Assembly (NCBI GenBank): GCA_016209665.1
Contig: JACQVT010000937.1
Coordinates: 1 to 23,992, forward strand
From: Planctomycetota bacterium
GTDB lineage: Bacteria; Planctomycetota; Phycisphaerae; UBA1845; PWPN01
Length of the DNA stretch: 23,992 bases
Reading direction: 5' to 3'
In this document: piece after piece, positions 1,632-23,710 of the stretch
How positions within the stretch are numbered: position 1 is the stretch's first letter
How the letters are laid out: each line of letters begins with the position of its first letter
Program-made: the position numbers and the translations under genes
Notes under the pieces: model-generated
Database searches by the model: none
What the model saw: the letters and a program-made list of their open reading frames with translations, nothing else
Told to the model about the DNA's origin: nothing

Positions 1632-3470
1632 TCACGCTCTCATGCGAAGAAGACGAGCCGAATTCAGCACGACTGCGACGGAACCGACGTTGTGAACGAT
1701 CGCAGCCATGATCGGCGAAAGCCACCCAACGCTTGCGAGGAGAATCGCGATCCCGTTGTAGAGAACCGCAAACACGAGCAGGTTTTCCCGGATACGGCGC
1801 TTCGCGCGGCGGCCAAGGCGGATGAGTTCCGGTACACGCCCGACATCTGGATTCAGAACCCCAATGGGGGCCGTCTCCAAGGCGAGCGGAGAAGCGCCGG
1901 CGCCAAATGCCGCGCCGACGTAGCTACTGGCCAGCGCGGGCCCGTCATTCACGCCGTCCCCCACGTAGAGCACCTTAGCCCCGCTGGCCCGCAAGCGTTC
2001 GAGGTGTTCGACCTTCTCGTGCGGGAGTAGCCCGCCTTGCGAAGAATCGATCCCAACCTGCTCCGCCAGTCGCCCAACGGCGGCGGCGCGGTCGCCAGAC
2101 AGGAGATGGATATCACGAAGCCCGAGCTTTCGCAGTTCGCCCACCGCGGTTGCTGCCGAATCCCGGGGTGGATCTTCTAAGATGATCGCGCCTACCGACC
2201 GCTGGTCGCGCTCCACCCACAGCACGCTGCTGGCGTTGACATTCTCAAGGTTTGGGGTGGCCGACTCCATGAATCGCTGCCGGCCTACACGCACGGAGCA
2301 TCCGCCTACGACGCCGCTTACTCCCAACCCTGTAGTGCTCTGAAACCCCTCGACCGGCATGATTGGCACGTTGCGCCGCTGCGCCTCTCGGACCACGGCC
2401 TCGGCCAGGGGGTGCTCGCTCTTCTGCTCCACGCTAGCGGCCCACGACAGCACTTGATTCTCGGTCTGCCCGTTCAGTGCGACGATGCGGCTCAGGCTCG
2501 GGCGCCCGGAGGTCAGCGTTCCCGTTTTATCGAATACAACCGCGTTGACTTCGCCAACGGCCTCCAGGAACTTGCCGCCTTTGATCATCAGGCCGCGGCG
2601 GGCAGCCGCTCCGAGTCCCGCGACCACGGCGGTCGGTGTGGCCAGGATTAGCGCGCATGGACACCCTACAACCAACACCGAGACGCAACGGATGAAATCG
2701 CCGCTCCAGAGCCACACGAACGCTGCCAGCGTAACAATTGCGGGCGTGAACCATCGGGCAAAGGCGTCGGCGCTGCGAACGATCGGTGCCTGGTGTGACT
2801 CGGCATCCCGGATCAACGCGACGATCTTGCCAAGGGATGAATCCTCACCGACGCGTGTGGTCGCCACCGTCAAGGCGCCTCCTTGAACCAGACCGCCGGC
2901 GAAGACCGGCGTGCCAACTTCCGCTTCGACTGGCATGGACTCCCCGGTGACTGCTGCCTGATCGACCGAGGCGCTCCCTTCGACCACCTGTCCGTCAACG
3001 GGAACCTTCTCACCCGGCTTCACCAGTATGTGCTGCCCGGGGCGGACTTCCGCGACGGGCACGACACGTTCGATACTGCCGTCGATGATGCGCGCCGTCT
3101 CGGGGGCCAAATCTACCAGCGACTCAATGGCCCGTCGTGCCCTGCTGGACGTGAACGACTCCAGCAGACTGCCGAGAATCATGATGAAACTGACGGTCGC
3201 CGCGGTGAGGTACTCGCCGATGATCAGCGCGGCGACGATCGCCAGGCTCACCAACTCATCGACGTTCAGTTGTCGACCGAGCAAGCCCCACACCGCCCCA
3301 TGGAGGATGCGCCCGCCGCACAGTGCCGTGGCCAGCAACGCCAGGCCGGTCTCGACAAGCGGTTGGGGATGCCAGAGCCGAAGCATCCAGCACGCACCGA
3401 TGGCCAAGCCGGCCGCTGATGTCATTGCGACCTGTTTCGTAATGCCTCGATCTCGAAAGCGGGCAATCAT
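1632..3470 (-). CDS. Heavy-metal P1B-type ATPase (metal exporter)
   Basis: The 612-residue protein carries the full P1B-ATPase signature: actuator TGES at 175-178, transmembrane metal site CPC at 270-272, phosphorylation motif DKTGT starting at D314, the HP pair at 353-354, and GDGVND at 504-509. It should couple ATP hydrolysis to metal extrusion across the inner membrane. There is no N-terminal HMA metal-binding domain; the first helices begin near residue 15. The metal is uncertain. Helix 7 has the YN pair (571-572) of copper pumps, but helix 8 reads HNVGS..VVLNSARL, not the copper MxxSS or the zinc DxG pattern. ATG start with a weak GGAA. It lies 25 bases after the RcnR-like regulator and should share its promoter. 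The adjacent regulator suggests Ni/Co or another divalent metal. Confidence 0.95.
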   Translation of the reverse strand: MIARFRDRGITKQVAMTSAAGLAIGACWMLRLWHPQPLVETGLALLATALCGGRILHGAVWGLLGRQLNVDELVSLAIVAALIIGEYLTAATVSFIMILGSLLESFTSSRARRAIESLVDLAPETARIIDGSIERVVPVAEVRPGQHILVKPGEKVPVDGQVVEGSASVDQAAVTGESMPVEAEVGTPVFAGGLVQGGALTVATTRVGEDSSLGKIVALIRDAESHQAPIVRSADAFARWFTPAIVTLAAFVWLWSGDFIRCVSVLVVGCPCALILATPTAVVAGLGAAARRGLMIKGGKFLEAVGEVNAVVFDKTGTLTSGRPSLSRIVALNGQTENQVLSWAASVEQKSEHPLAEAVVREAQRRNVPIMPVEGFQSTTGLGVSGVVGGCSVRVGRQRFMESATPNLENVNASSVLWVERDQRSVGAIILEDPPRDSAATAVGELRKLGLRDIHLLSGDRAAAVGRLAEQVGIDSSQGGLLPHEKVEHLERLRASGAKVLYVGDGVNDGPALASSYVGAAFGAGASPLALETAPIGVLNPDVGRVPELIRLGRRAKRRIRENLLVFAVLYNGIAILLASVGWLSPIMAAIVHNVGSVAVVLNSARLLRMRA

Positions 3471-3495
3471 CCATGGTTCCGTTCACAAATGGGTA

Positions 3496-3774
3496 TCACT
3501 TCAAGTAAGCTCGTATCACGTCGAGAAGCGTCTCGGTCGCTCGGCTTTGTTCGGCCGTGAGCGGCTTGCGAGCATCGTGGACGTGGTGCAGGATGTGGCC
3601 CCGGATCAGTTCGCACATCAGGGCGTTCATGGCCCCCCGGCAGGCCGCGATGGTCTGCAGCATGGTGTCGCAATCCTGCTCCGCCTCAAGGGCCTTCTCG
3701 ATGGCCTCGACCTGGCCGCGGATGCGGCGGACGCGGTGCAGCAGCTTTTGCTTGTCCTGGATGGTATGGGCCAA
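3496..3774 (-). CDS. RcnR/CsoR-family (DUF156) metal-sensing repressor, TTG start
   Basis: All-helical, tetrameric metal sensor of the CsoR/RcnR/FrmR family, which releases DNA when it binds metal. The TTG at 3774 was chosen because a GGGAGG ribosome site lies 8 bases upstream and the 92-residue product (MAHTIQDKQKLLHRVRRIRG...) matches family length; a longer frame from 3849 would run through the promoter. With this start the residues are H3, C35, H60 and H64, the positions E. coli RcnR uses for Ni(II)/Co(II). Copper CsoR proteins use Cys-His-Cys, and FrmR has Glu at 64. Two extra cysteines, C45 and C54, are present. It is first in an operon with the P1B ATPase and likely represses itself through the operator at 3821-3847. 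The Ni/Co assignment is inference from ligands. Confidence 0.9.
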   Translation of the reverse strand: MAHTIQDKQKLLHRVRRIRGQVEAIEKALEAEQDCDTMLQTIAACRGAMNALMCELIRGHILHHVHDARKPLTAEQSRATETLLDVIRAYLK

Positions 3775-3820
3775 CGGACGGTCCTCCCGGGCAACCTGGC
3801 GCTTGACAATGGACTCGACA

Positions 3821-3847
3821 CCCCTATAGTATACCCCAGTAGGGTAC
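3821..3847 (-). promoter_or_regulatory. RcnR/CsoR-type operator overlapping the promoter
   Basis: A perfect inverted repeat TACCC-N5-GGGTA spans 3832-3846 on the plus strand and fills most of the 17-base spacer between the -35 and -10 boxes. Just beside it, plus-strand TATAGTATACCCC resembles known DUF156-family operators (C/G tract flanked by AT-rich TATAGTATA sequence, as recalled for FrmR and RcnR). Repressor bound here would block RNA polymerase directly. Binding is inferred. Confidence 0.72.
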
Positions 3848-3854
3848 ATGACAA
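3826..3854 (-). promoter_or_regulatory. Sigma-70-like promoter for the regulator-ATPase operon
   Basis: Reading the minus strand: -35 TTGTCA (3854-3849), 17-base spacer, -10 TACTAT (3831-3826). TATACT, two bases upstream, is an alternative -10. It lies about 50 bases before the TTG start at 3774 and contains the operator inside the spacer. Confidence 0.6.
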
Positions 3855-3914
3855 GGGCTTGTTTTTGAGTTCTTGGCCGTAACGGAGACTCAGGGCACGA
3901 CGTCTCGTCCGGTA

Positions 3915-3943
3915 TGGCGAGGTCGGCGAGACGCCGATAGAAT
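3915..3943 (+). promoter_or_regulatory. Possible promoter for the RND efflux operon
   Basis: The -10 candidate TAGAAT (3938-3943, five of six consensus) lies 17 bases after a weak -35, TGGCGA. If used, transcription would start near 3950. It lies about 70-90 bases from the operator on the divergent side, so shared control by the RcnR-like protein is possible but not shown. Confidence 0.35.
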
Positions 3944-3986
3944 GCATTCGATGGATAGACGCACCCAGATATGCCGATCGACCGCG

Positions 3987-4445
3987 ATGGGGGGCTTCCG
4001 CCGGATGCTTCGGTGCCGATTCCCCTGTTTGCTCTCGGCGGTGGGCCTGTTTCCCGTATTAGTCCTCGGGCCCCTCGGGCCTGGCACCATCGTCATTCAC
4101 GATCACCAGGAAGAGGTTCTTCACGCCCACAGGGTTCATCCGGCATCCGGCGGAGGCGGTGCGGCCCGCGTCGGGCACGATCACCCGGGAGGAACGGTCG
4201 TTGACCTTGAAGGCACGCGGTTCGTTCTGACGCTCCCCGACCTACCGCGACTCTCCACACATGTGCAGGGGTCCGGTCTTCAGGTGAAACCCTTGCCGCC
4301 CCCGGTTGTCATCGCGAGCATCCTGCCCGAGGACATGGTTCTATCTGCCGTCGATTTCGGGGTGCGGGCTCGGCCGGTAGCGCCATTGCGCGCACACGAT
4401 ACGATGACCAGCCTCCTGCTGGGCGGTCACTCCCTCCTGATCTGA
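3987..4445 (+). CDS. Small His-rich exported protein ahead of the RND pump
   Basis: About 152 residues and no recognised family. A short basic N-terminus (FRRMLRCRF) is followed by a hydrophobic segment (LLSAVGLFPVLVLGPLGPG), consistent with a signal peptide or anchor. After it come closely spaced histidines: IHDHQEEVLHAHRVHP and GHDHPGG, with more to the C-terminus. It stands first in the same direction as the CzcB/A/C-like genes, so a periplasmic metal-binding or metal-buffering role is a reasonable inference. The start is uncertain: the frame is open from 3873, with ATGs at 3942, 3951, 3987 and 4005. I chose 3987 because it lies downstream of the putative promoter and gives a normal signal-peptide n-region; 4005 has a G-rich stretch upstream and is also plausible. 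Confidence 0.6.
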   Translation: MGGFRRMLRCRFPCLLSAVGLFPVLVLGPLGPGTIVIHDHQEEVLHAHRVHPASGGGGAARVGHDHPGGTVVDLEGTRFVLTLPDLPRLSTHVQGSGLQVKPLPPPVVIASILPEDMVLSAVDFGVRARPVAPLRAHDTMTSLLLGGHSLLI

Positions 4446-4556
4446 TCTGATCTTCCTCTCGTTCGGCTTCGTCTTCGGTGTCGCCGTGCGCTGTGTTTTG
4501 CGCGGGTTGTGCCTTTCGCGTTTGTCTGGTACCCCAACTGAAGCTAGGACCTTACC

Positions 4557-6308
4557 ATGAAATGCCTTGTCTTCATCATGATCTTCTCTGCCGCCATGGC
4601 CATTGGTGCCATGGCCGGCTGCAATCGCAAGAACCCTGCTTCCTCCGGCGATCATGGACATGCACCGGTCGCCCAGGGCGCCAACGGGGGAGCTGCCCAC
4701 GCCGAGGAGAATGGACTCGACCCGATCAGCGTGACGCTGTTCACGCCCAAGGTCGAGTTGTTCATGGAGTACCCGCACCTGGTGCGCGGGCAGAAGGCGC
4801 GGTTCCTCGCCCACCTGACTGTGCTGGCCGCGGGTGAGCCGGTGCGTGCCGGGACGTTGGTCCTGGAGGCGACTGGGCCGGACGGCAAACCGCTCCAGGT
4901 GAAGCTGGATGCTCCGGCACGCGATGGGCTGTTCACTCCAGAACCGACATTCGATACGCCCGGCTCCTACAAGGCCCGGCTGGTCCTGCAAAGCTTGCAG
5001 GTGGAGGAGGCCATTGACCTGGGGGAGCTGGTTGTCCACGCCGACGCAGCCGCTGCGGCGAAGACTGCCGAAGCGGCGGCCGGTGAAGACCCGCCCGGGG
5101 CCATTCCCTTCCTGATGGAGCAGCAGTGGAAGATCGCGATGCTCATGGGCCAAGCCAGCAAGCAGACGCTCACCCGTCGTCTGACGTTGCCCGGCCAGAT
5201 CGTCGCCCCGCAGGGAGCGGAAGCGGTCATCAGCCCGCCCGTGGCTGGCCGTCTGATGCCGCCCGGGGCCGGTAGAATCCCGCGCGTCGGAGATCGGGTG
5301 GAAGCCGGACAGGTGCTGGCGATGATCGAGCCGCCCCTGCCGCTCACCGAGGCCATTCAACTCTCCGCCAACCAGGCCCAAATCCGCACTTTGGAAACGG
5401 AATTGGCTCTCCGCTCGTTCGAGATGCACTCAAAGGCTCTTGAAGTTGAAAGGTCGATCGTGCAGGCCAGAACCCGGCTGGACTTCGCGCGGCGGGCGTT
5501 CGATCGAGCCGCGCGCCTGCGGGAACAGGGCGCCGGCAGCGAGGCCCAGCGGGAACAGGCCGAAGAGGAACTGCGTCTGGCCCAGGCCGAGCATGACAGT
5601 GCCTTCGCCGTCCAGAAGCTCTACCAGGAGTCGCTGGCCCAACTGCCCCGGCTTAGGCCGACCACTCGGCCGGAGGAAGCCAACGTGAGCGTCAGTCAGA
5701 TGCATATGCCTCTTCGAGCAGCCATCTCCGGCACCATTATCTCAGCCGAGCACATTGAAGGCGAGCACATCGATGCCCACCAGGAGGTCTTCCGCATCGT
5801 CAATACCGACCACGTCTGGGTGCTGGCCCACATCTCGGAGTTCGACCTGGCCGAGGTGGGGCCGACACCGGACGCCACCTTGACGCTGGCGGCATACCCG
5901 GATCGCTCGTTGGACATCACCGCGTCGGGAGGCCGGCTGGTCAACATCGGCACGGTGGTCGATCTCGAGTCCCGCACCGTGCCCATCCGATACGAACTCC
6001 CCAATAAGGACGGCCTGCTTCGCGTTGGCCTGTTCGCAGACGTTCACCTGGCGACGAAGCGAGCCGCCGACGTGATCGCCATCCCGGAGGAAGCCATCGT
6101 CCTGGACGCCGGTCGGCCGACGGTCTACGTCATGCTCGAAGGCGAGACCTTCCAGAAGCGCGAACTCACGCTCGGCATCCGCGACCAGGGTTTCGTTGAA
6201 GTGACCAGCGGCATTAACGAGGGCGAGCGGGTCGCTACCCGTGGAGCCTACGAAATCAAGCTCGCTTCGTTGTCACCCGAGTCCTTCAGCCACGGCCACG
6301 CGCACTGA
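4557..6308 (+). CDS. RND efflux periplasmic adaptor lipoprotein (CzcB/CusB-like)
   Basis: 583-residue membrane fusion protein that would bridge the inner-membrane pump and the outer-membrane channel. The N-terminus is a lipoprotein signal with lipobox MAGC (C22), followed by a His/Gly/Ala linker (GDHGHAP). Residues 55-165 form an extra N-terminal beta domain seen in metal-type adaptors. A barrel-sandwich half motif (ISPPVAGRLMP...GDRVEAGQVLA, about 225-257) precedes a coiled-coil hairpin (about 265-365), then the second half (AAISGTIISAEHIEGEHI, about 388-405), beta-barrel and membrane-proximal domains to about 565. The C-terminus ends HGHAH, a possible metal site. ATG start with AGGA seven bases upstream. 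It lies 15 bases before the permease gene. The metal is not readable from sequence. Confidence 0.93.
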   Translation: MKCLVFIMIFSAAMAIGAMAGCNRKNPASSGDHGHAPVAQGANGGAAHAEENGLDPISVTLFTPKVELFMEYPHLVRGQKARFLAHLTVLAAGEPVRAGTLVLEATGPDGKPLQVKLDAPARDGLFTPEPTFDTPGSYKARLVLQSLQVEEAIDLGELVVHADAAAAAKTAEAAAGEDPPGAIPFLMEQQWKIAMLMGQASKQTLTRRLTLPGQIVAPQGAEAVISPPVAGRLMPPGAGRIPRVGDRVEAGQVLAMIEPPLPLTEAIQLSANQAQIRTLETELALRSFEMHSKALEVERSIVQARTRLDFARRAFDRAARLREQGAGSEAQREQAEEELRLAQAEHDSAFAVQKLYQESLAQLPRLRPTTRPEEANVSVSQMHMPLRAAISGTIISAEHIEGEHIDAHQEVFRIVNTDHVWVLAHISEFDLAEVGPTPDATLTLAAYPDRSLDITASGGRLVNIGTVVDLESRTVPIRYELPNKDGLLRVGLFADVHLATKRAADVIAIPEEAIVLDAGRPTVYVMLEGETFQKRELTLGIRDQGFVEVTSGINEGERVATRGAYEIKLASLSPESFSHGHAH

Positions 6309-6323
6309 AAGGAGCCTGAGCCC

Positions 6324-9300
6324 ATGATCGACTTCATCATTCGCTGGTCCCTGGCCAATCGCCTGGCGGTGGTCATCATCTCGGCTGTCCTGCTGTTCGC
6401 GGGCACCTATACGGCGACAACCATGCCGGTGGACGTGTTTCCCGACCTTACCGCACCCACGGTCAGCATCCTGGTTGAAGGCCGGGGAATGGCCCCGGAA
6501 GAGATGGAAACGCTGGTGACGTTCCCGATCGAAACAGCCGTCAACGGGGCCGCTCACGTTCGCCGCGTGCGTTCGGCGACGGCCGTGGGCATCGCGGTCG
6601 TCTGGGTGGAGTTCGACTGGGGCACGGACATCTATCGGGCCCGGCAGACGGTGACCGAGCGGATGGCCACGGTGTCGTCGAGTCTGCCGCCCCAGGTCCA
6701 GACGCCGGTGCTCGCCCCGATCTCCTCCATCATGGGTGAGATTCTCTTTGCCTCGCTGACCTCTGACCGGCACAGCCAGCTTGAACTGAACACGGTGGCC
6801 CGCACCGAGATTCGCCGCCGCCTGCTCTCGGTGGCTGGCGTCGCCCAAGTCACGCCCATCGGCGGAGACACGAAGCAGTACCAGGTCATCCTGTCGCCGG
6901 AGCGATTGAGAGCCTATCAGATCAGCATCAACGAGGTGGCGGAGGCACTTCGCAAGACCAACGAGAACGTCTCGGCCGGTTTTCTGGTGCAGGCTCAGCA
7001 GGAATACCTGATCCAGGGCGTTGGCCGCATCCAGCGGCCAGAAGACATCGGCCGAACGGTGGTCGTGTTGCGTGACGGCAAACCTATCTACGTCTCCGAC
7101 CTGGGAGCGATCACGGTCGGAGCGGCCATCAAGCGTGGCACTGGCTCGGCGTCCCGGCGCGGGCCAAACTGGGAGCCGGCCATCGAGCCCGGCGTCATCA
7201 TCGCCATCCAGAAGCAGCCGGGCACCAACACGCTGGCCCTCACCCGGACGCTCGACGCGGCCCTGGACGAGATACAGGCCAGCCTTCCGCAAGGCATGTT
7301 CATCAACAAGAATCTGTTCCGTCAGGCCAACTTCATCCAGGTCTCGATCCATAACACGATCGAGGCCCTTCGCGACGGCGGGATCATGGTGGTGATCGTC
7401 GTCGTGCTCTTCCTGGCCAGCCTGCGGGCGAGTGTCATCACGTTGCTGGCCATCCCCGTTTCGCTGGTGGTCGCCATTCTGACACTCAAGGTGTTCGGCT
7501 CGACGATCAACACCATGACCTTGGGCGGCATGGCCATCGCTATCGGGGCGCTGGTGGACGACGCGATCATCAACGTCGAAAACGTCGTTCGTCGGTTACG
7601 TGAGAACGCGGCGCTCCCGGAGAGTCAACGACGCTCGCCGCTGGAGGTTATTTACAGGGCCAGCGTCGAGGTTCGCGCCTCCATCGTGTTCGCCACGATC
7701 ATCATCCTGATCGTATTCACGCCTATCTTCTTTTTGAGCGGAGTGGAAGGGCGGCTGCTCCAGCCGCTTGGTGTGGCCTTCACCGTTTCGTTGACCGCTT
7801 CGCTCGTGACGGCACTCACGTTGACGCCCGCCCTGTGCTCATACTTGCTGCCCAGGAGCAAAGCCGTCGCCAAGGCGAGCGAACCACTGGTGGTGCGATT
7901 GCTGAAGCGGCCGTATGGCTGGATGATCAACTTCGCGCTGAGCCATCCGTGGCTGGTGGTCCTGCCGACACTGGCCCTGTTCGCCGCCGCCCTGGTGGGC
8001 GTGAGCTACGTGGGCCGCAGCTTCCTGCCGGAGTTCAACGAGGGGGCACTGGTCGTGGGCCTTGTGACCGTGCCGGGCACGTCGATCCAACAGAGTGACG
8101 CGATGGCCCACCGGGTCGAGCAAGCTCTCATGCAGCACCCCCAGATCGCCGCCATCGGCCGACGCACGGGGCGGGCCGAGGAGGACGAGCATGTCCAGGG
8201 CGTGGAGGCCAGCGAGATTGACCTGACGCTGGACATGGACGCGCCCACTCGAATGGGCAAGCCACGCCGGACCAAGAATGAATTGCTGGAGGTGCTCCGT
8301 CGCGATCTTGCTGCCATCCCAGGAGTGCAAGCCACTTTCGGCCAGCCTATCGGGCACCGCATCGACCACATGCTCTCCGGCACGAGGGCCAACATCGCCG
8401 TCAAAATCTTCGGCGAAGACCTGCTCAAGCTGCGCGAGTTGGCCAAGCAGGTGGAATCGACCATGAGGACCATTCCCGGTGTGGTGGACCTCTCCACCGA
8501 ACAGCAGGTGGACATCCCGATCATGCGGGTGGAGTTCGACCGGGCCAAGATCGCCCGTCATGGGCTGCAAGTCTCCAGCGTGGCCGATACGCTCCAACGG
8601 GCATTCAGCGGCGACGTGTTGACCCAGGTGCTTGAAGGTCGCAACGCCTTCGATCTGGTGCTTCGGGTCGGAAAACCGGGGACGGCCTCAATCAGCGGCG
8701 GAACTTCGATGGACCGAATCGGCGAGGCACTGGTGGATACACCCGGTGGGGCCAAGATTCCGCTCAAGGCACTGGCCCGCATCAGCGAGGAGCGTGGGCC
8801 GAATCTCATCAGCCGCGAGAACGTGCAGCGCAAGATCGTGGTCATGTGCAACGTCGCCGGCCGGGACGTGGGCGGCGTAGTAGATGACATCCGCCGGACC
8901 ATCGCCGAGCGCGTGCCGTTACCGCGCGGGTACTACGTCCAGTTCGGCGGGCAGTTCGAGAGCGCCGAACAAACCCGGAAGCTCCTGAGCGTCCTGGGCA
9001 TCATCATCGTGGTGGCCATTGGCTTTCTGCTGCACATCGTGTTCCGCTCCGGCCGGGACGCCGTGCTCATCATGGTCAATCTGCCGCTGGCCCTGATCGG
9101 CGGCGTGGGCGGCGTGTTCCTTTCGGGCGGATCGCTTTCGGTGGCGTCCACCATCGGTTTCATCACCGTTTTCGGCATCGCCGCCCGCAACGGCATCATG
9201 ATGGTGTCGCACATGCGCCACCTGCAAGTCGCGGAGGGTGTCCACGACTTCCGTGAGGCCGTCCATCGAGGTGCCACGGAGCGTCTGGCTCCCATTCTCA

Positions 9301-9548
9301 TGACCGCCCTGGCGGCCGGTCTGGCATTGATTCCTCTGGCCTTCTCCGGCGACAAGCCGGGCAACGAGATACTGACCCCGATGGCCATCGTGATCCTTAC
9401 CGGCCTGCTGTCGTCCACGTTCTTGAACATGCTGGTGGTGCCGGCCTTGTACCTGCGGTTCGGGCGAGCCGTTGACCGGCAGTCGAAAGCTGAATCCGAG
9501 GTCATACGTCTGCTCGGCACGGCTGAATCACCGGCTGTCCCCGTGTAA
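6324..9548 (+). CDS. Heavy-metal RND efflux permease (CzcA/CusA family)
   Basis: The 1074-residue inner-membrane proton/metal antiporter has the usual RND length. Visible landmarks are the first helix at about 10-30; PVDVFPDLTAPTVSI at 35-49; the porter domain at 50-335; a helix cluster from 340; the helix-4 motif GALVDDAIINVENVVRRL (408-425) with D412/D413 and E419, the likely proton-relay and family-defining acids; a second porter domain from about 570; and a final helix cluster with GIAARNGIMMVSHMRH, typical of heavy-metal RND pumps. A good ribosome site (AGGAG) precedes the ATG. It is middle gene of the adaptor-permease-outer-membrane trio. The substrate is probably a divalent cation; the RcnR-like regulator nearby suggests Ni/Co, but Zn or Cd is not excluded. 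Confidence 0.95.
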   Translation: MIDFIIRWSLANRLAVVIISAVLLFAGTYTATTMPVDVFPDLTAPTVSILVEGRGMAPEEMETLVTFPIETAVNGAAHVRRVRSATAVGIAVVWVEFDWGTDIYRARQTVTERMATVSSSLPPQVQTPVLAPISSIMGEILFASLTSDRHSQLELNTVARTEIRRRLLSVAGVAQVTPIGGDTKQYQVILSPERLRAYQISINEVAEALRKTNENVSAGFLVQAQQEYLIQGVGRIQRPEDIGRTVVVLRDGKPIYVSDLGAITVGAAIKRGTGSASRRGPNWEPAIEPGVIIAIQKQPGTNTLALTRTLDAALDEIQASLPQGMFINKNLFRQANFIQVSIHNTIEALRDGGIMVVIVVVLFLASLRASVITLLAIPVSLVVAILTLKVFGSTINTMTLGGMAIAIGALVDDAIINVENVVRRLRENAALPESQRRSPLEVIYRASVEVRASIVFATIIILIVFTPIFFLSGVEGRLLQPLGVAFTVSLTASLVTALTLTPALCSYLLPRSKAVAKASEPLVVRLLKRPYGWMINFALSHPWLVVLPTLALFAAALVGVSYVGRSFLPEFNEGALVVGLVTVPGTSIQQSDAMAHRVEQALMQHPQIAAIGRRTGRAEEDEHVQGVEASEIDLTLDMDAPTRMGKPRRTKNELLEVLRRDLAAIPGVQATFGQPIGHRIDHMLSGTRANIAVKIFGEDLLKLRELAKQVESTMRTIPGVVDLSTEQQVDIPIMRVEFDRAKIARHGLQVSSVADTLQRAFSGDVLTQVLEGRNAFDLVLRVGKPGTASISGGTSMDRIGEALVDTPGGAKIPLKALARISEERGPNLISRENVQRKIVVMCNVAGRDVGGVVDDIRRTIAERVPLPRGYYVQFGGQFESAEQTRKLLSVLGIIIVVAIGFLLHIVFRSGRDAVLIMVNLPLALIGGVGGVFLSGGSLSVASTIGFITVFGIAARNGIMMVSHMRHLQVAEGVHDFREAVHRGATERLAPILMTALAAGLALIPLAFSGDKPGNEILTPMAIVILTGLLSSTFLNMLVVPALYLRFGRAVDRQSKAESEVIRLLGTAESPAVPV

Positions 9549-9578
9549 GCGAATAGATGCGGAATGAGGTGAGCACAG

Positions 9579-11138
9579 ATGAGTTGCACTGCGAGTGTAT
9601 CCTGGAGTGTGTGGATCAGGCCGGTGGGTGCCGTCCTTCCCGTTCTGGTGCTCGTGGCCTGTGTGAAGGTCGATCCGTCGGCAGACTTCCGTCTTGCCCG
9701 CGAGGCGATCCGGGAATCCACGGGCGTTCGAGATGTGTATGCACCGGAATCCGACCCAATCTCCGAGGCCGAAATCAACGTCACCGTCCAGGATGGCCTG
9801 GCGCTGGATGAGGCTCTGCGCCTGGCCCTGGTAAACAATCGCGGTCTGCAAAGCGATTTTCTGGAGATCGGCATCGCCCGAAGCGACCTGGTGCAGTCCG
9901 GACTGTTCTCGAACCCTTCTCTGGCGTTGTCGGTGCAGTTCCCGGAGGGTGGCGGACGGAGCAATCTCCAGACCTCCCTGGCCCAAAACATCGTGGACCT
10001 ATGGCAGATTCCAGCACGCAAGCGTGTGGCGCAAAGCGATCTCGACCAGGCGGTCCTGCGGCTTGCCCGTCTGGCCAATGTGCTGGCCATCGACGCGCGC
10101 CGCAGCTACTTCGCGGCCGTGGCCGCACAGGACATGCTCCAGGTCGCGCAGGAGAACCTCCAACTCGTTGAGAAGTCGGTCCGGACCATAAGAGCGCAGC
10201 GGGAGGCGGGAGCAGCCAGCCAACTCGATGAGAACCTGGCGCGTGGACAGGTCCTCAACGCGCAACTTGCCCAGATAGCGGCCCGCTTGGAAGCGGTGAA
10301 TTCAAAGCGCCGCCTGGCACGGTTGCTGTCCATTGAGGCGGACATGGCCCAAGTTATGCTGACCGATCCGTTGCCCGGCCCACTTGCCGAGGGGCTGACC
10401 GCCGAGGCGCTCGTCCCGGCAGCCCGCGAGCATCGACTCGACCTGCGGGCGCTGGATGCCGGCGTCAGGTCCGCCGAGTCCAAGGTGCGCCTCGAATACC
10501 TCGATATCTTCCCGGAAGTGTCCGTCGGTCCGTTCCTGGAGAGAGGCGAACGGCGAGCCTCGCCCGGACGCGATGTGCTGGCCGATACCGCCCGCGCTTC
10601 TATCGCCAGCGGTGCCTTGACCGCCCCGGATATTCAGAGCCGGGGCCAGCGCCGCAAGGAACGGCGGCAGGAGATCGACGCGATCCTGGGACCGGCCATG
10701 ACCATGACGCTGCCCATCTTCGATCAGAATCAGGCTCAGATCGCCAAGGCGAAGTACCAGTACGAGCAGGCCGTCAAGTCGTTCGAGGCGAGTTACCTCG
10801 CCATTGCCCAGGACATCCGCATGGGCGTCGAGCGGGCCAACACCGCATCCCGCAACGTCGCCTTCTACCGCGACGAACTCCTGCCCCAGGCCCAGCGAAA
10901 CCTGGACATCGCCACGTCGGCCTTCAATGCAGGCGGTACGAGCATCCTGGCTGTTCTTGAGGCCCAGCGATCCTTCCTGGAGGCACGACGGGGACTGCTC
11001 ACCGCGCGTGCCGAGGCGGCCAGCGCCTGGGCCGACCTCGAACTGGCAGTGGGCGTCCCACTGGTCGAGATGCGAAGGACACCGGCCCCGGCATCGCAGC
11101 CTCTCATGTCCGAAATAATAGGTCACTCCGGCCAGTAA
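9579..11138 (+). CDS. TolC-family outer-membrane efflux lipoprotein (CzcC/CusC-like)
   Basis: The 519-residue outer-membrane channel subunit completes the tripartite pump. A hydrophobic signal ends in LVAC (C28), so it is probably acylated. Two TolC repeats are visible: the first begins LALDEALRLALVNNRGLQSDFLEIGIARSDLVQSGLFSNPSL, the second is the C-terminal half with Q.QIAKAKYQYEQAV and a long coiled coil ending ...AGGTSILAVLEAQRSFLEARRGLL. ATG start with AGGTG seven bases upstream, 30 bases after the permease stop. An insert around residues 325-360, between the repeats, is rich in Arg and Gly. It should dock with the adaptor encoded at 4557. Confidence 0.93.
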   Translation: MSCTASVSWSVWIRPVGAVLPVLVLVACVKVDPSADFRLAREAIRESTGVRDVYAPESDPISEAEINVTVQDGLALDEALRLALVNNRGLQSDFLEIGIARSDLVQSGLFSNPSLALSVQFPEGGGRSNLQTSLAQNIVDLWQIPARKRVAQSDLDQAVLRLARLANVLAIDARRSYFAAVAAQDMLQVAQENLQLVEKSVRTIRAQREAGAASQLDENLARGQVLNAQLAQIAARLEAVNSKRRLARLLSIEADMAQVMLTDPLPGPLAEGLTAEALVPAAREHRLDLRALDAGVRSAESKVRLEYLDIFPEVSVGPFLERGERRASPGRDVLADTARASIASGALTAPDIQSRGQRRKERRQEIDAILGPAMTMTLPIFDQNQAQIAKAKYQYEQAVKSFEASYLAIAQDIRMGVERANTASRNVAFYRDELLPQAQRNLDIATSAFNAGGTSILAVLEAQRSFLEARRGLLTARAEAASAWADLELAVGVPLVEMRRTPAPASQPLMSEIIGHSGQ

Positions 11139-19390: not shown

Positions 19391-19807
19391 ATGTCAGACT
19401 TGGTGCGGCTGAGCCTGTCGATCGAGCAACCGCTGTTCGATCAACTCGAAAAACTCGTCAGGAAGAGCGGCTACGTCAACCGCTCGGAGTTCGTGCGCGA
19501 CCTGATCCGCGACCGCCTGGTCCGCACCGAGTGGGACAAAGACGAGGAGGTTCTGGGCACCATCACGCTCGTGTATGACCACCACCGGCGCCAACTGGCG
19601 GAGAAACTGATCGACCTGCAGCACCACCACCACACCGCGGTGCTGGTGACCACGCACGTTCACCTGACCCAGCACTTGTGTGCGGAGGTCATTCTGGTCC
19701 GCGGCCGGGCCCACCTCATCCAGAAGCTGGCCGACCTGATCCACCAGCAGAAGGGCGTGCTGCATTCCGAACTGTCCATGACCAGCACGGGGGCGGAACT
19801 GCACTGA
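19391..19807 (+). CDS. nikR: Nickel-responsive regulator NikR
   Basis: 138-residue ribbon-helix-helix/ACT-domain repressor that binds DNA when loaded with Ni(II). Residues 1-45 form the RHH DNA-binding part (VRLSLSIEQPLFDQLEKLV...YVNRSEFVRDLIRDRL). The C-terminal regulatory part keeps the nickel ligands: H78 in LQHHHH, H89 and H91 in TTHVHLTQH, and C97, equivalent to E. coli H76, H87, H89 and C95. The start ATG was chosen over a longer frame because an AGGGTGG site precedes it and the length fits the family. No nik transporter genes follow. The next gene downstream has an operator-like inverted repeat in its promoter. NikR usually represses nickel uptake genes, so the downstream genes are its likely targets. 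Confidence 0.95.
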   Translation: MSDLVRLSLSIEQPLFDQLEKLVRKSGYVNRSEFVRDLIRDRLVRTEWDKDEEVLGTITLVYDHHRRQLAEKLIDLQHHHHTAVLVTTHVHLTQHLCAEVILVRGRAHLIQKLADLIHQQKGVLHSELSMTSTGAELH

Positions 19808-19835: not shown

Positions 19836-19864
19836 TTGACACGGCGGCCCGGATGTATTACCTT
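19836..19864 (+). promoter_or_regulatory. Promoter of the dockerin/pseudopilin/FmdE genes
   Basis: Perfect -35 TTGACA (19836-19841), 17-base spacer and a weak -10 TACCTT (19859-19864). TATTAC (19856-19861) is a better -10 match but with a 14-base spacer. It lies 28 bases after the nikR stop. The -10 region coincides with the left arm of the operator-like repeat, as expected of a repressed promoter. Confidence 0.5.
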
Positions 19865-19881
19865 TATTACTTTAGTAATAT
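19855..19881 (+). promoter_or_regulatory. NikR-like operator (GTATTAC-N13-GTAATAT)
   Basis: Six of seven positions are complementary between the arms. The spacing of 13 resembles deltaproteobacterial NikR sites as I recall them (GTGTTAC-N13/14-GTAACAC). Inside it a second, tighter palindrome, TATTAC-N4-GTAATA (19865-19880), gives an extra TATTAC half-site. The AT-rich composition contrasts sharply with the flanking GC-rich DNA. The site overlaps the promoter -10 and lies 35 bases before the ATG at 19917. NikR binding is inferred from sequence and from the adjacent nikR gene. Confidence 0.6.
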
Positions 19882-19916
19882 CAATGGTGATGTCGCAGCG
19901 CCGAAAGGGGACTGGC

Positions 19917-21050
19917 ATGAGAAGCATCGGATGGGCCTTGATCGTCGCCTTGGCAGCGGCGGCGGCCTGGGCAGAGGATCCCGATTGGTCGTCCATGTCG
20001 TACACGTTGCACAAGGACTACCAGGCAGTGGATGCGGCCGGCAACGGGACGTTTCCGACCCACCATGCCCTCGTCATGCGGGGTGTACTGATCAACTGGC
20101 CCGCCACGATGCTTCCGACGGCGGCGGGGTTCGAGCCATTCCTCGGCGGTCAGTGGCAGGAATGCGTGCAGGCGGTGGAGGAGGACGATTTCGGCGGCAC
20201 GGCCCTGTGGATGGGCCAGTATTACGGGCATCTGCCGTTCATCGGCGATCCCCTGAACGTCTACAGTGACGAGGAGTGGCGGGCCGAGCTGCACCGGCTG
20301 AACCACGACCCGGCCACAGGACGGCTGTTCCGGCCGGGCGATCTGGTGGAAATCCGCGCTCGCGCCCCCGGTCTGTTCCACAACGGGAAAACCAACATCA
20401 ACGAACAGCACACCGTCGATCTGGAGGCGAACTTCGACGTGGTACTGTTGCAGGCCAACCACAGCTCCCCCGCGCCGCTGACGATCACGCTGGCGGACGT
20501 GAAGGACGACAGCGACGAGTTCATTTTCGATGCGACTGGAATAACCGGCGCCGAGCATTACCAGGCGGCGCTGGTCAGAATCGAGAATGTCCAGTTCATG
20601 GACGGCACCTGGGGGCCGAACCGGCAGATGACGATCGGCGACGGGTCCGGGCGCACGTTGCCCTTGCTCTTGGGGCTCGGCAGCGGGTTTACGCTCTACG
20701 GCCCGCCGACAGGGGCATTCGACGTCGTGGGCGTGTTCGATCAGGAGGACGCAATCGAGGCCGACGGGTTCAAGACGGGCTATCGGCTGTGGGCGATGGA
20801 CTACGACGGCAGCCGGTTTGTCCTGCTGCGGCACGTCAAACCGGATTTCGACCACGACGGCGACGTGGACAACGACGACGTGGCTCATTTCGAGCAGTGT
20901 GCCCTGGGGCCGGCGATCCCGCAGACCGATCCCGGCTGTCTGGACGCGGATTTCAATTATGATGGGAGCGTGGACTCAATTGACTTCGCAACGTTCCAAC
21001 GATGTCGCTCGGGAGCGGAGGAGCTGGCCGACCTGTTCTGCGACCAGTGA
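19917..21050 (+). CDS. Secreted protein with two C-terminal dockerin-type calcium repeats
   Basis: A 377-residue protein with a signal peptide (residues 1-19, cleavage likely after AWA). The body (about 45-300) looks like a beta-rich, OB-fold-like exported domain with motifs FHNGKTNINEQHTVD, FIFDATGITGAEHYQ and MTIGDGSGRTLPLLLG. I do not recognise a named family. Residues 309-328 and 344-363 are dockerin type I-like calcium loops (DFDHDGDVDNDD; DFNYDGSVDSID), common on planctomycete secreted proteins. The ATG was chosen for its AAGGGGA site six bases upstream; a longer frame from 19836 would run through the promoter and operator. It is first of three exported-protein genes behind the NikR-like operator. 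A role in nickel handling is inference; an attachment function for the dockerin is possible. Confidence 0.85.
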   Translation: MRSIGWALIVALAAAAAWAEDPDWSSMSYTLHKDYQAVDAAGNGTFPTHHALVMRGVLINWPATMLPTAAGFEPFLGGQWQECVQAVEEDDFGGTALWMGQYYGHLPFIGDPLNVYSDEEWRAELHRLNHDPATGRLFRPGDLVEIRARAPGLFHNGKTNINEQHTVDLEANFDVVLLQANHSSPAPLTITLADVKDDSDEFIFDATGITGAEHYQAALVRIENVQFMDGTWGPNRQMTIGDGSGRTLPLLLGLGSGFTLYGPPTGAFDVVGVFDQEDAIEADGFKTGYRLWAMDYDGSRFVLLRHVKPDFDHDGDVDNDDVAHFEQCALGPAIPQTDPGCLDADFNYDGSVDSIDFATFQRCRSGAEELADLFCDQ

Positions 21051-21744
21051 ACCCGCGGCGGGTGGCGCCGCCGGCTTCACATTGATCGAGGTGCTCGTCG
21101 TGGTCGCCGTCGTGGCCCTGCTGGTGGCGATGCTGCTGCCCTCGCTGGCCAGCGCCAGGATCAAGTCGCGGATCGTCGCAGCCCACGCCGACCTGCGGCA
21201 GATCACCCTGGCCTTGGACGCCTACGCGATGGAGCACAAGGACCATTACCCGCCGACGCGGCAGTCCTGTGGAACGCCCATTCTATACCAATTGCCGCTG
21301 GAGCTGGCGGTCAAGAAGTATTTCCCGAGGAGCCCGGACAACCTGAAGCGGGCGTTTCTCGAGGATATCTTCTATCCGGGGCAGACCTATCGGTATCGGG
21401 CACCGGGGGCGGTCTGGCAGAACGGCACGCTCATGGATTTCCCGGAGAGCACTTGGCGGCCGCGGGCTCAGGTCTGGGTGCCCGATGACGTTCCGCGGTG
21501 CGCCAGCGAGTCTGGCCGGTATTACGCGGCCCGCAAGGGCGAGCCGAGGAGCCCGGTGACCTATGCCGTGTGGAGCGTCGGGCCAAAACTCGATTCGCCC
21601 AAGCTCCCGCGGTCGAGCGATGGAAGCCTCGACGAATCGAAGTTTCCGCTGCCCAGTAAGTTCTGGCTGACTCTGGATGGTCGGCCGTCGGGCCTGATCA
21701 CACACTTCAGGACCGCCGACGGTCCGACGTACGCGAGTCCGTGA
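20980..21744 (+). CDS. Pseudopilin-like (type II secretion/type IV pilin-type) protein
   Basis: A prepilin processing motif, AAG^FTLIEVLVVVAV, followed by a hydrophobic helix (VVALLVAMLLPSLASA), marks a class III signal cleaved after Gly. The roughly 220-residue mature domain (DLRQITLALDAYAMEHKDHYPPTR...) resembles the many planctomycete DUF1559-like/type II pseudopilin proteins. The start is uncertain. TTG at 20980 or ATG at 20962 gives a long 31-37-residue leader and an overlap of 70-90 bases with the dockerin gene. A GTG at 21047 overlaps the upstream TGA in the manner of coupled genes but is one base out of frame, which raises the possibility of a frameshift or sequencing error. It probably sits in the inner membrane with its C-terminal domain outside. 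Confidence 0.75.
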   Translation: MTSQRSNDVARERRSWPTCSATSEPAAGGAAGFTLIEVLVVVAVVALLVAMLLPSLASARIKSRIVAAHADLRQITLALDAYAMEHKDHYPPTRQSCGTPILYQLPLELAVKKYFPRSPDNLKRAFLEDIFYPGQTYRYRAPGAVWQNGTLMDFPESTWRPRAQVWVPDDVPRCASESGRYYAARKGEPRSPVTYAVWSVGPKLDSPKLPRSSDGSLDESKFPLPSKFWLTLDGRPSGLITHFRTADGPTYASP

Positions 21745-21799
21745 GGTCCGGGTTTCGGATCGTGAGTGGGGTCAGGACAATCGGGAAGTGAGGACCCTG

Positions 21800-22552
21800 A
21801 TGGTCAATATTGCCTGGGCGGCGCGTTTGATGGTTATGATGGGTGGGTTAGCCGCGGCGGGCGGCTGCGTTCAAGACGGAGTTGGCGGGGGCCACCAGAT
21901 GGGCGGGCAGACAGGTTCACCGGCGGGCGGGCATTCTCACCTGCGGCACTATCAGGCAGCGGACACGGACGCGCCGTGGCTGGCCAAGGCGGGCGACTTG
22001 CATGGGCACCTGGGCCCCTGGGTGGTCGTGGGGGCGATGATCGGCCGCGATGCCATCGAGCGTTTGAATACGGACGGGCAGTGGGAGATCGAGGTGATCT
22101 GCTGGATGCCGCAGGCCAAGCAGCGGCCGCCGTTCACCTGCATTCTCGATGGCCTCCAGGCGTCGTCGGGGGCGACCATGGGCAAGCGGAACATCCGGAT
22201 GGACGACGGCCCGGCCATCACCGAAACCGGCGAGCCGGTCGTCCACGTCGTGCACAAGCGCGCCGATGGTACGGTCGACGCCGGTGTCGTGTACGAGATG
22301 GCCCCCGTGCTGGCGGACATCCTGGCCCGTTCGTCGCCGGACCGTATCGAGGCCATCGCCCGCGAGATCGCGGGCCATCCGCCGGACGAGTTGTTCGTCA
22401 TCCGGTCGATGACGGCCGAGGAGTTGACGCGGACCCGGCTGGATCCCACCGGTTCGACCGGCAGGGCTCGAACGCACTCTCGCAGCTTATGGTCCGTTTT
22501 CGGGCCGGGCTTCAGCGTCGAGAGGTTCGGGCGTCACCTTCCTTTTTCGTGA
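21800..22552 (+). CDS. FmdE-domain lipoprotein
   Basis: A 250-residue protein. The N-terminus (MVNIAWAARLMVMMGGLAAAGGC) is a lipoprotein signal with probable acylated C23, followed by a Gly/His-rich linker (GGGHQMGG, GGHSHLRHY). Residues 62-205 match the FmdE domain (PF02663): DLHGHLGPWVVVGAMIG (66-82) and CILDGLQASSGATMGKRNI (114-132). Typical FmdE proteins read GCT before GKxN; here that Cys is Ala125. FmdE domains bind zinc and occur with formylmethanofuran dehydrogenase, but many stand-alone members have no proven role. An exported form near nikR suggests extracytoplasmic metal binding (inference). The ATG has GTGAGGA six bases upstream. It follows the pseudopilin by 55 bases; its 3' end overlaps the convergent DUF1579 gene by 41 bases. 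Confidence 0.85.
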   Translation: MVNIAWAARLMVMMGGLAAAGGCVQDGVGGGHQMGGQTGSPAGGHSHLRHYQAADTDAPWLAKAGDLHGHLGPWVVVGAMIGRDAIERLNTDGQWEIEVICWMPQAKQRPPFTCILDGLQASSGATMGKRNIRMDDGPAITETGEPVVHVVHKRADGTVDAGVVYEMAPVLADILARSSPDRIEAIAREIAGHPPDELFVIRSMTAEELTRTRLDPTGSTGRARTHSRSLWSVFGPGFSVERFGRHLPFS

Positions 22553-23189
22553 GCTTGATGGTCATCATCTTGAATTCCTTGCCGCTCTTGTGATCGGTGG
22601 CGAACATCTCGAGCGTCTTGGTGTCGGGGCCGGTGATGGTCTCGATCTCCCGAAGCACGGTGGGCTTTTGGGTGATCGGACAGTTGACGGTGAACTCCCA
22701 GGTGATCGTCTTGCCGTCCTCCGACATCGCTCCCACGCCGTTCATGATGCCGGTGCTATGGTTGTCGATCCAGACCGAGACGAACTTCTGCGAGACGTTG
22801 TCGAAGCCGTAGATACCCAAGCCCTCGTATGGCCCCATGTCGCATCCCTGGCCGGACATCTTGATCTTCGTGTAGCGGCCGTCCAGGATCGACTTGACGG
22901 TCGAAGTGCACTCGCCCTTGGTAGGTTCGGCGTCGGGCACCATCCACATGGTGGTCTGACCGCGCCACTCGCCGACGCTCTTGGCGAGATGCTCGTGCAT
23001 CTTGCCGGGCGTGCCGGCCCGCACGCACGCCTGCATGTCGGCCTCGGTCCAGCCGGGCGGCAGTTTCATCTCCGGTTGGGTGGTGGGTTTGGACTCCCGG
23101 GACGGGTCGGCGATCGCGATCGACCCAACAACGATGGCCAGGCCGGCGGCAACGATCAACGCCGGGGCAACCAGTTTCTTGCGGTCCAT
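22512..23189 (-). CDS. Secreted DUF1579-family protein
   Basis: A 225-residue protein with an N-terminal hydrophobic signal (about residues 7-31), a linker rich in Ser/Thr/Pro, and a DUF1579 domain from about residue 60: HEHLAKSVGEWRGQTTMWMVPDAEPT, then ILDGRYTKIKMSG..MGPYEGLGIYGFDN..KFVSVWIDNHSTGIM. The family is a lipocalin-like beta-barrel of unknown function, frequent in planctomycetes. The ATG at 23189 is preceded by a perfect GGAGGT four bases upstream, which decides it over the ATG 12 bases earlier. It is convergent with, and overlaps, the FmdE gene by 41 bases. No ligand can be named. Confidence 0.88.
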   Translation of the reverse strand: MDRKKLVAPALIVAAGLAIVVGSIAIADPSRESKPTTQPEMKLPPGWTEADMQACVRAGTPGKMHEHLAKSVGEWRGQTTMWMVPDAEPTKGECTSTVKSILDGRYTKIKMSGQGCDMGPYEGLGIYGFDNVSQKFVSVWIDNHSTGIMNGVGAMSEDGKTITWEFTVNCPITQKPTVLREIETITGPDTKTLEMFATDHKSGKEFKMMTIKLTKKEGDARTSRR

Positions 23190-23272
23190 GATAACCTCCA
23201 AAGATCAGCCGTTCCGCCGCCCCACGCGGGCGGATCGGATCGGCTGGTAGTAGTGAGCAATCGGTACACGGT

Positions 23273-23710
23273 TCACGGCCTCATCGTTGGCTCACGGCAC
23301 GTGCTCGACCCAAGGATTCGTCGGACGCGTCCCGCCGCCAGGTAGACCAGCGACCCCACGCAGAGGATTGTCAGGACGACTCGCATGTAGGTCGCCGAGG
23401 AGACGGAAATCCCCACGCCGGTCGCGAGTGCGACGTACGCGGCGAGGCAGGCGGGGCCGAACATGAAATGTTTGACGATCAACTGGCTGCGTCCGTCGAA
23501 GAGGTCGGCGAGGGTCTTCGTGCCATCCAGCGTGTCGAAGACGTATTCCTTCTCGACCTTGACCCAGGGCAGGTCACGCCGCTCGGCGCTCAATCGGTCA
23601 CGCTGCCGGGTCAGCTCCTTTTCTTTGGCCAGGTGGGCTTGGCGGGCCGCCAGCCATTGGTCTCGGGATACGATCCGGTGGGGTGAAATCGGTGTCTGGA
23701 TTGCGTTCAT
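23273..23710 (-). CDS. Truncated DUF899 protein fused to a membrane segment
   Basis: A 145-residue protein. Residues 1-87 closely follow the N-terminus of DUF899 thioredoxin-like proteins ([22 protein letters not shown]..., [36 protein letters not shown]). Full members are about 230-250 residues and continue from FMFGP into the thioredoxin-like core with its cysteines. Here the sequence switches after FGP to an unrelated hydrophobic segment ([18 protein letters not shown]... [17 protein letters not shown]) with two likely helices. The thioredoxin core is missing, so the usual function is probably lost. An internal deletion fusing two neighbouring genes is the simplest explanation. The ATG has AAGGAG eight bases upstream, so the chimera is probably still translated. 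Confidence 0.72.

Follow-up and report, generated by a model that had tools for sequence, protein, structure and literature searches.

A probable NikR-repressed nickel-acquisition operon in planctomycetes, with an exported protein, a pseudopilin and an FmdE-family protein

We analyzed a 23,992-base stretch of DNA (the window), which is the entire contig C853 of a planctomycete assembly of 4.87 Mb and 77.6% completeness. Within it, a gene for the nickel-responsive repressor NikR is followed by genes for an exported protein, here called DocN, a pseudopilin, and an FmdE-family protein. These genes probably belong to a NikR-repressed operon for nickel acquisition, in which DocN would capture the metal with the pseudopilin as its partner, FmdE would relay it, and an importer of the ZnuA type would bring it into the cell. 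Control of the operon by NikR is strongly supported by comparison of sequences; from these we also infer its role in nickel uptake and its derepression when nickel is scarce. Among relatives, the comparison shows a predicted NikR-type operator before DocN, before units of FmdE and importer genes, and before CbiM, and shows that the operon is conserved. Below, L-numbers denote loci and G-numbers denote genomes of the comparison sets.

Results

The regulator and its candidate operator

The features on which the argument turns are the following.

19391-19807, plus strand: nikR, nickel-responsive ribbon-helix-helix repressor (Pfam RHH_1, 36.4 bits; NikR_C, 88.2 bits)
19836-19841, plus strand: TTGACA, candidate -35 hexamer, exact match
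19855-19881, plus strand: candidate NikR operator, inverted repeat GTATTAC-N13-GTAATAT
19917-21050, plus strand: DocN, predicted exported protein, with a signal peptide, two oligonucleotide/oligosaccharide-binding (OB) fold domains at about residues 19-302, and C-terminal dockerin repeats at residues 310-359
21073-21744, plus strand: pseudopilin, given here from the GFTLIE motif onward (its conserved part); an uncertain start lies upstream (TTG at 20980 is one candidate)
21788-22552, plus strand: FmdE-family (PF02663) protein with a possible lipoprotein signal, domain at 21998-22327

Both the N-terminal RHH_1 and the C-terminal NikR_C domain of the regulator score above their Pfam cut-offs, and the protein aligns with the solved NikR 2bj1 along its length (phmmer E 1.2e-35). 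Its metal-site residues, LQHH and HVH...C, fall in register with structures 2bj1 and 2ca9; the nickel-site residues are H76, H87, H89, and C95 in Escherichia coli numbering.

The sequence-only reading that preceded this work had noted a TTGACA hexamer 28 bases past the nikR stop codon and an inverted repeat at 19855-19881, and nikR, hexamer, and repeat all lie as described. It had also set the repeat over a -10 region. The repeat itself stands, but no pair of sigma-70 hexamers at the candidate promoter passes a promoter scan, so the -10 label was not confirmed. The arms of the repeat are complementary at six of seven positions. They match the NikR signal of delta-proteobacteria, given as GTGTTAC-[N13/14]-GTAACAC with one case of GTaTTAC-[N13]-GTAACAC in the part of the source available to us (PMC545781), at 11 of 14 arm positions and differ at three. 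In its own 4.87-Mb assembly, 19855-19881 is the sole place within one mismatch of GTRTTAC-N13-GTAAYAC.

The repeat across relatives

E values for the best 120 of 241 matches to DocN are, without exception, below 1e-91. Across 39 distinct DocN loci (48 examined, nine duplicates dropped), we searched 300 bp upstream for the box with N13 or N14 spacing. It precedes DocN with two or fewer mismatches in 19 of the 39, against 0.05 in dinucleotide shuffles (100 shuffles), with one or none in 16 and perfectly in six, the shuffles giving 0.0 in both of the latter cases. The recurrence of the repeat upstream of homologues, which had been proposed as a check, is thus borne out, and the box is present whether or not nikR adjoins DocN.

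A second element precedes DocN in 11 further loci and appeared in none of 200 shuffles (23 upstream regions tested), a post hoc count because the element was first spotted by eye.

GTADYAC-N14-TATGC, operator-like and lineage-specific: upstream of DocN in L163, L164, L165, L170, L171, L172, L173, L175, L186, L187, and L192

It is present twice in L163 and in L165 and often lies beside a TTGACT/TTGACA-like hexamer (by eye). The recognition strand of NikR in the window and its close kin is RLSLS-like; in the five variant-element loci that also have a nikR (L163, L165, L172, L186, and L192), ERVG or ERIG stands there with V/I-S next, a change from R-x-S-x-S to R-x-G-x-S that accompanies the variant element in this lineage.

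A genome-wide search with GTRTTAC-N13-GTAAYAC, allowing one mismatch, covered 61 genomes (our own and 60 relatives) and returned 38 sites, including 14 perfect ones. Of these 14, five lie upstream of DocN (G003, G004, G007, G012, and G049), four upstream of CbiM (L136, L137, L140, and L141), and three upstream of ZnuA-type transporters (L138, L098, and, through FmdE, L108). Another has nikR on one side and a DUF4198-CbiM pair on the other (L102), and the last precedes genes for a PEP-CTERM protein and a pseudopilin (L139, in the same-genus genome G001) and is flanked on the opposite side by a divergent gene of the sulfatase family. Among the 24 sites with one mismatch, four precede DocN (G000, G006, G008, and G010) and two precede CbiM (G006 and G010). 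Five of the remaining 18 were inspected (L142 and L145-L148); four are intragenic, and one lies about 25 bases before an uncharacterized gene.

At two of the ZnuA-type operons, a gene for a class I S-adenosylmethionine (SAM) methyltransferase diverges with the NikR box in common (L138:413-1039 and L098:12770-13387; Pfam assignment for L138 only), and another diverges from DocN in L176 (1635-2222). The substrate is possibly a chelator.

Co-occurrence of DocN and NikR

In a phylum sample of 392 genomes, DocN (cut-off E 1e-20) occurs in nine, a number that may miss some because only the four best first-look candidates per genome were scored. All nine encode NikR_C, versus 112 of the 392 overall (hypergeometric 3.5e-5 for the eight genomes other than our own), and in seven of the nine, our own included, no more than 0.5 kb separates nikR from DocN. 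Among the 61 genomes, nikR is present in 13 of 14 with DocN at the same cut-off versus 10 of the 47 others. The association that was to be looked for is therefore found in the phylum and among the relatives, and together with the NikR-type box before DocN, with or without an adjacent nikR, it supports the earlier proposal of NikR control.

The operon and its importer in relatives

The run of genes that begins with DocN continues into a ZnuA-type binding protein in 18 of 39 loci, mostly with an ATPase and an ABC-3 (ATP-binding cassette) permease; it includes FmdE in eight and CbiM in two, and L157 and L158 have a weak FmdE match ahead of nikR instead. L075 (G010) carries the parts in a single run: DocN, pseudopilin, FmdE, ZnuA-type protein, ATPase, and ABC-3 permease. 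The importer parts are members of PF01297 and PF00950 above the cut-offs. In 14 aligned members of the ZnuA-type binding protein, a CPGHFD motif is invariant and His190 nearly so. The protein is distantly related to manganese, zinc, and iron binding proteins; in an alignment with a PsaA-like manganese protein, the PGH of the motif pairs with PH.

The CPGHFD protein occurs in 10 of the 61 genomes (E 1e-15), all of which are DocN genomes. It lies within the DocN operon in G004, G008, G010, G012, and G016. In the other five it is encoded apart from DocN, in a unit whose own box lies upstream of it or of the FmdE gene that precedes it; these boxes are perfect in G007, G009, and G021 and have two mismatches in G003 and G049. 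The sequence-only reading had remarked that the window holds no canonical Nik, Nix, or Cbi transporter. The importer genes of the relatives are indeed absent from it, but in relatives the importer belongs to the operon, and CbiM stands under the same repeat.

These importers raise the question of which metal is carried. It is conceivable, though unlikely, that the NikR-controlled operon serves cobalt or several metals, with NikR or the importer favoring cobalt or a metal chelate. Cobalt or nickel is what the family of the CbiM-type transporters found under the same box carries, and the substrate-binding protein is only distant kin of the manganese, zinc, and iron proteins, both of which would suit this possibility; however, the regulator has NikR_C with the nickel-site residues aligned, and the box is of the NikR type, which argue for nickel.

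DocN and the pseudopilin

The DocN gene starts at an ATG at 19917, preceded by AAGGGGA, and the product begins with a typical signal peptide (by eye). The dockerin match (PF00404) is marginal at 23.4 bits against a gathering threshold of 22.9, and the C-terminus differs among homologues. A search of NCBIfam gave no match at E 0.01 and so does not place DocN in the family of the zinc protein ZepA (see below).

The gene that follows DocN encodes a protein with a GFTLIE cleavage motif at about 21073 and an N_methyl domain (PF07963; 22.5 bits, above the cut-off). Because its start codon lies upstream of 21073, the gene and the 3' end of DocN overlap. The family aligns over its full length in 32 members. 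In 35 of 39 loci a pseudopilin gene directly follows DocN, counted with the exclusion of pilin matches covering fewer than 120 residues. The exceptions are L171, which ends 224 bases past DocN; L085, where bases are masked; and two loci in which no pseudopilin was found after DocN, L166 (Thermoguttaceae) and L167 (Pirellulales), the latter with only the N-terminal part of a pilin matched at a distance of 1.3 kb.

Such a dedicated family beside DocN, together with dockerin-like ends that are able to mediate attachment, would also be expected if the two proteins formed a surface fiber or adhesin fixing cells to nickel-bearing particles, with no part in secretion. We consider this improbable. The best curated match of the pseudopilin is to GspG of the type II secretion system (TIGR01710), although at 48.4 bits it is below the cut-off of 88.85, which makes the protein pseudopilin-like rather than GspG, and solved type IV pilins also match its N-terminal helix. 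Slightly less probable again is that DocN works as an enzyme independent of nickel, either a substitute or a housekeeping one, silenced by NikR in the presence of nickel and next to an importer by coincidence: its 22 invariant columns across 48 sequences would suit an enzyme, and a NikR site has been predicted before a nickel-free isozyme, the iron-only hydrogenase of Desulfovibrio (PMC545781, available in part), but DocN runs into a metal importer or FmdE in the loci counted above, and a fold search returned OB folds with no exported enzyme among the matches listed.

In the same-genus genome G001, the perfect box noted above stands before a PEP-CTERM protein and a pseudopilin of another type (by eye; L139:6592-8300). 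The PEP-CTERM protein (L139:6667-7452) has a weak match to all3515_fam, the ZepA family, scoring 28.8 bits where the cut-off is 75.

The FmdE protein

The match to PF02663 is well above threshold (49.8 bits against a gathering threshold of 22.9). H72, H74, and C118 are retained in the window protein, H74 being glycine in L168 and L169, and the second motif (D58, Q61, and T67 in 2glz) is present as D121, Q124, and T130. In the part of PMC2954224 available to us, the metal site of the family is described as variable, with one solved member lacking zinc in the core domain and one structure binding zinc and nickel, and most FmdE-family genes are said by the authors to adjoin metal-transporter genes. 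We inspected eight of the 21 homologues listed besides our own for export signals, and six have a lipoprotein-like signal (P0122, P0123, P0124, P0129, P0130, and P0132; by eye).

Neighboring genes on the contig

After FmdE the coding strand switches, and two genes assigned by Pfam lie on the minus strand, DUF1579 at 22512-23189 and DUF899 at 23273-23710. Together (22512-23710) they occupy the place downstream of FmdE that the ABC importer holds in some relatives. At its end the FmdE frame is some 25 residues longer than its homologues, and, with this over-long frame and these genes in the place of the importer, the operon looks as if severed after FmdE.

The same contig also carries a metal-export island (1632-11138), and so combines metal uptake genes with metal export genes.

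1632-3470, minus strand: heavy-metal P-type ATPase
3496-3849, minus strand: RcnR/FrmR/CsoR-family repressor (RcnR model, 77.8 bits, cut-off 138; FrmR, 84.8 bits, cut-off 133)
4557-11138, plus strand: CzcB/CusA-type resistance-nodulation-division (RND) adaptor, pump, and outer-membrane protein

Discussion

The arrangement suggests how a nickel-acquisition operon of this kind might work. When nickel is plentiful, nickel-bound NikR would occupy 19855-19881 and shut the promoter, and scarcity of nickel would lift this repression. Outside the cytoplasm, DocN may then capture nickel or a nickel chelate, and its dockerin-like end would anchor it to the surface or within the matrix. The pseudopilin may be a dedicated partner that exports or displays DocN through an apparatus resembling type II secretion. 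FmdE, judging by the metal site of its family and by its gene neighborhoods, would take over or relay the metal at or inside the membrane. Finally, the ZnuA-type ABC importer, in relatives part of the same operon or of a separate unit with a NikR box, would carry the metal into the cell.

Several observations weigh against this scheme. First, within one mismatch the box shows no genome-wide excess, with 38 sites against 48 for a backward-pattern control in the 61 genomes, such that most one-mismatch sites are background; the signal of the box resides in its position and in its perfect sites. Second, the counts of co-occurrence ignore kinship, and G010 (99% complete, 7% contamination) has a complete operon and a one-mismatch box, but no NikR was found in it. 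Third, clusters lacking both nikR and the repeat, which the sequence-only reading had named as evidence that would tell against it, exist in part. Nine of 39 DocN loci have neither the box nor the variant element. Four of these (L158, L189, L190, and L191) have nikR nearby; L087, L168, L169, L174, and L176 have none within the locus DNA examined, although the genome of L087 (G016) encodes it elsewhere. L174 offers only 75 bp of upstream sequence, and L087, L176, and L191 carry near-variants. Fourth, our own assembly, at its 77.6% completeness, yielded no CPGHFD protein at a cut-off of E 1e-15 among the 41 candidates scored out of 50, nor a close ABC-3 permease, and G001 lacks both a full-length DocN and the CPGHFD importer.

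Fifth, one of the four known metal ligands of the FmdE family, the equivalent of Cys19, is glycine in the set, and the four-ligand site HxHxC plus C seen in 2glz is thus incomplete. Export signals had been ascribed to all three products, which holds for DocN and, as far as the N-terminal motif goes, for the pseudopilin. The export of FmdE is the least certain of the three, because its hydrophobic start has a non-ideal lipobox (LAAAGGC), the database gene call P0121 begins at an internal ATG without that signal, and the operon FmdE of several relatives, such as L075, L107, and L108, has no export signal (by eye).

G001 suggests a further feature of the system. Because this genome has the box, a PEP-CTERM protein, and a pseudopilin without a full-length DocN, the exported protein may be swappable while the arrangement stays. 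A broader reading, which we put forward tentatively and rate slightly short of an even chance, is that planctomycetes have a protein-based form of nickel scavenging, a complete nickel counterpart of ZepA: a NikR-controlled exported protein with two OB folds would bind nickel or a nickel chelate, a pseudopilin would accompany it, FmdE would hand the metal over to a new, CPGHFD class of ABC importer, and the exported protein could be exchanged. Extracytoplasmic nickel gathering is known mostly from Helicobacter outer-membrane proteins and small metallophores. If correct, this reading would place a protein-based route beside these, supply a function for more than 100 unnamed planctomycete proteins, give lipoprotein-like FmdE proteins a role, and make it possible to test clearly whether pseudopilins in planctomycetes are devoted to individual exported proteins. 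With box, operon, and regulator in hand, every step is testable.

In the literature surveyed, which was available to us in part, we found no joint description of DocN, pseudopilin, FmdE, and importer. Known counterparts of individual components are cited here from the same partial texts. The nearest precedent for DocN, which by analogy would be its nickel counterpart, is ZepA (All3515), an exported zinc protein under Zur repression, which reportedly mediates zinc uptake and is encoded near ZnuA in some genomes (PMC10957091). In both cases, a metalloregulator is linked to repression of an exported protein shown or proposed to be an extracellular scavenger. In contrast to ZepA, DocN would answer to NikR rather than Zur, has two OB folds and a dockerin but neither a PEP-CTERM nor a ZepA-family match, and belongs to a system with a dedicated pseudopilin, FmdE, and a separate importer binding protein of the CPGHFD type. 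The NikR regulons of delta-proteobacteria (NikMNQO/NikKMLQO) share the regulator, the geometry and nearly the bases of the repeat, and CbiM/NikM-type targets (PMC545781); to these the planctomycete regulon adds DocN, the pseudopilin, FmdE, and the ZnuA-type importer. In Helicobacter pylori, NikR likewise represses extracytoplasmic parts of nickel uptake (FecA3, HopV, and HopW), but these are outer-membrane receptors or porins (PMC5385501, whose reference list also names FrpB4), in contrast to an exported protein and a pseudopilin. The operon FmdE has the core domain of its family, with the HxH, C, D, Q, and T motifs, and its metal-transporter neighborhoods (PMC2954224), and it differs in the glycine at Cys19 and in the existence of a lipoprotein-like form; no link to formylmethanofuran dehydrogenase was seen in the loci examined. 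The importer, finally, resembles ZnuA/ABC-3 systems in its PF01297 and PF00950 members and in the alignment of its motif with that of PsaA-like proteins, and departs from them in the invariant CPGHFD, its distant sequence, and its NikR box. Metalloregulator-controlled extracytoplasmic metal uptake is a known principle, of which this operon would be a nickel version with its own set of parts.

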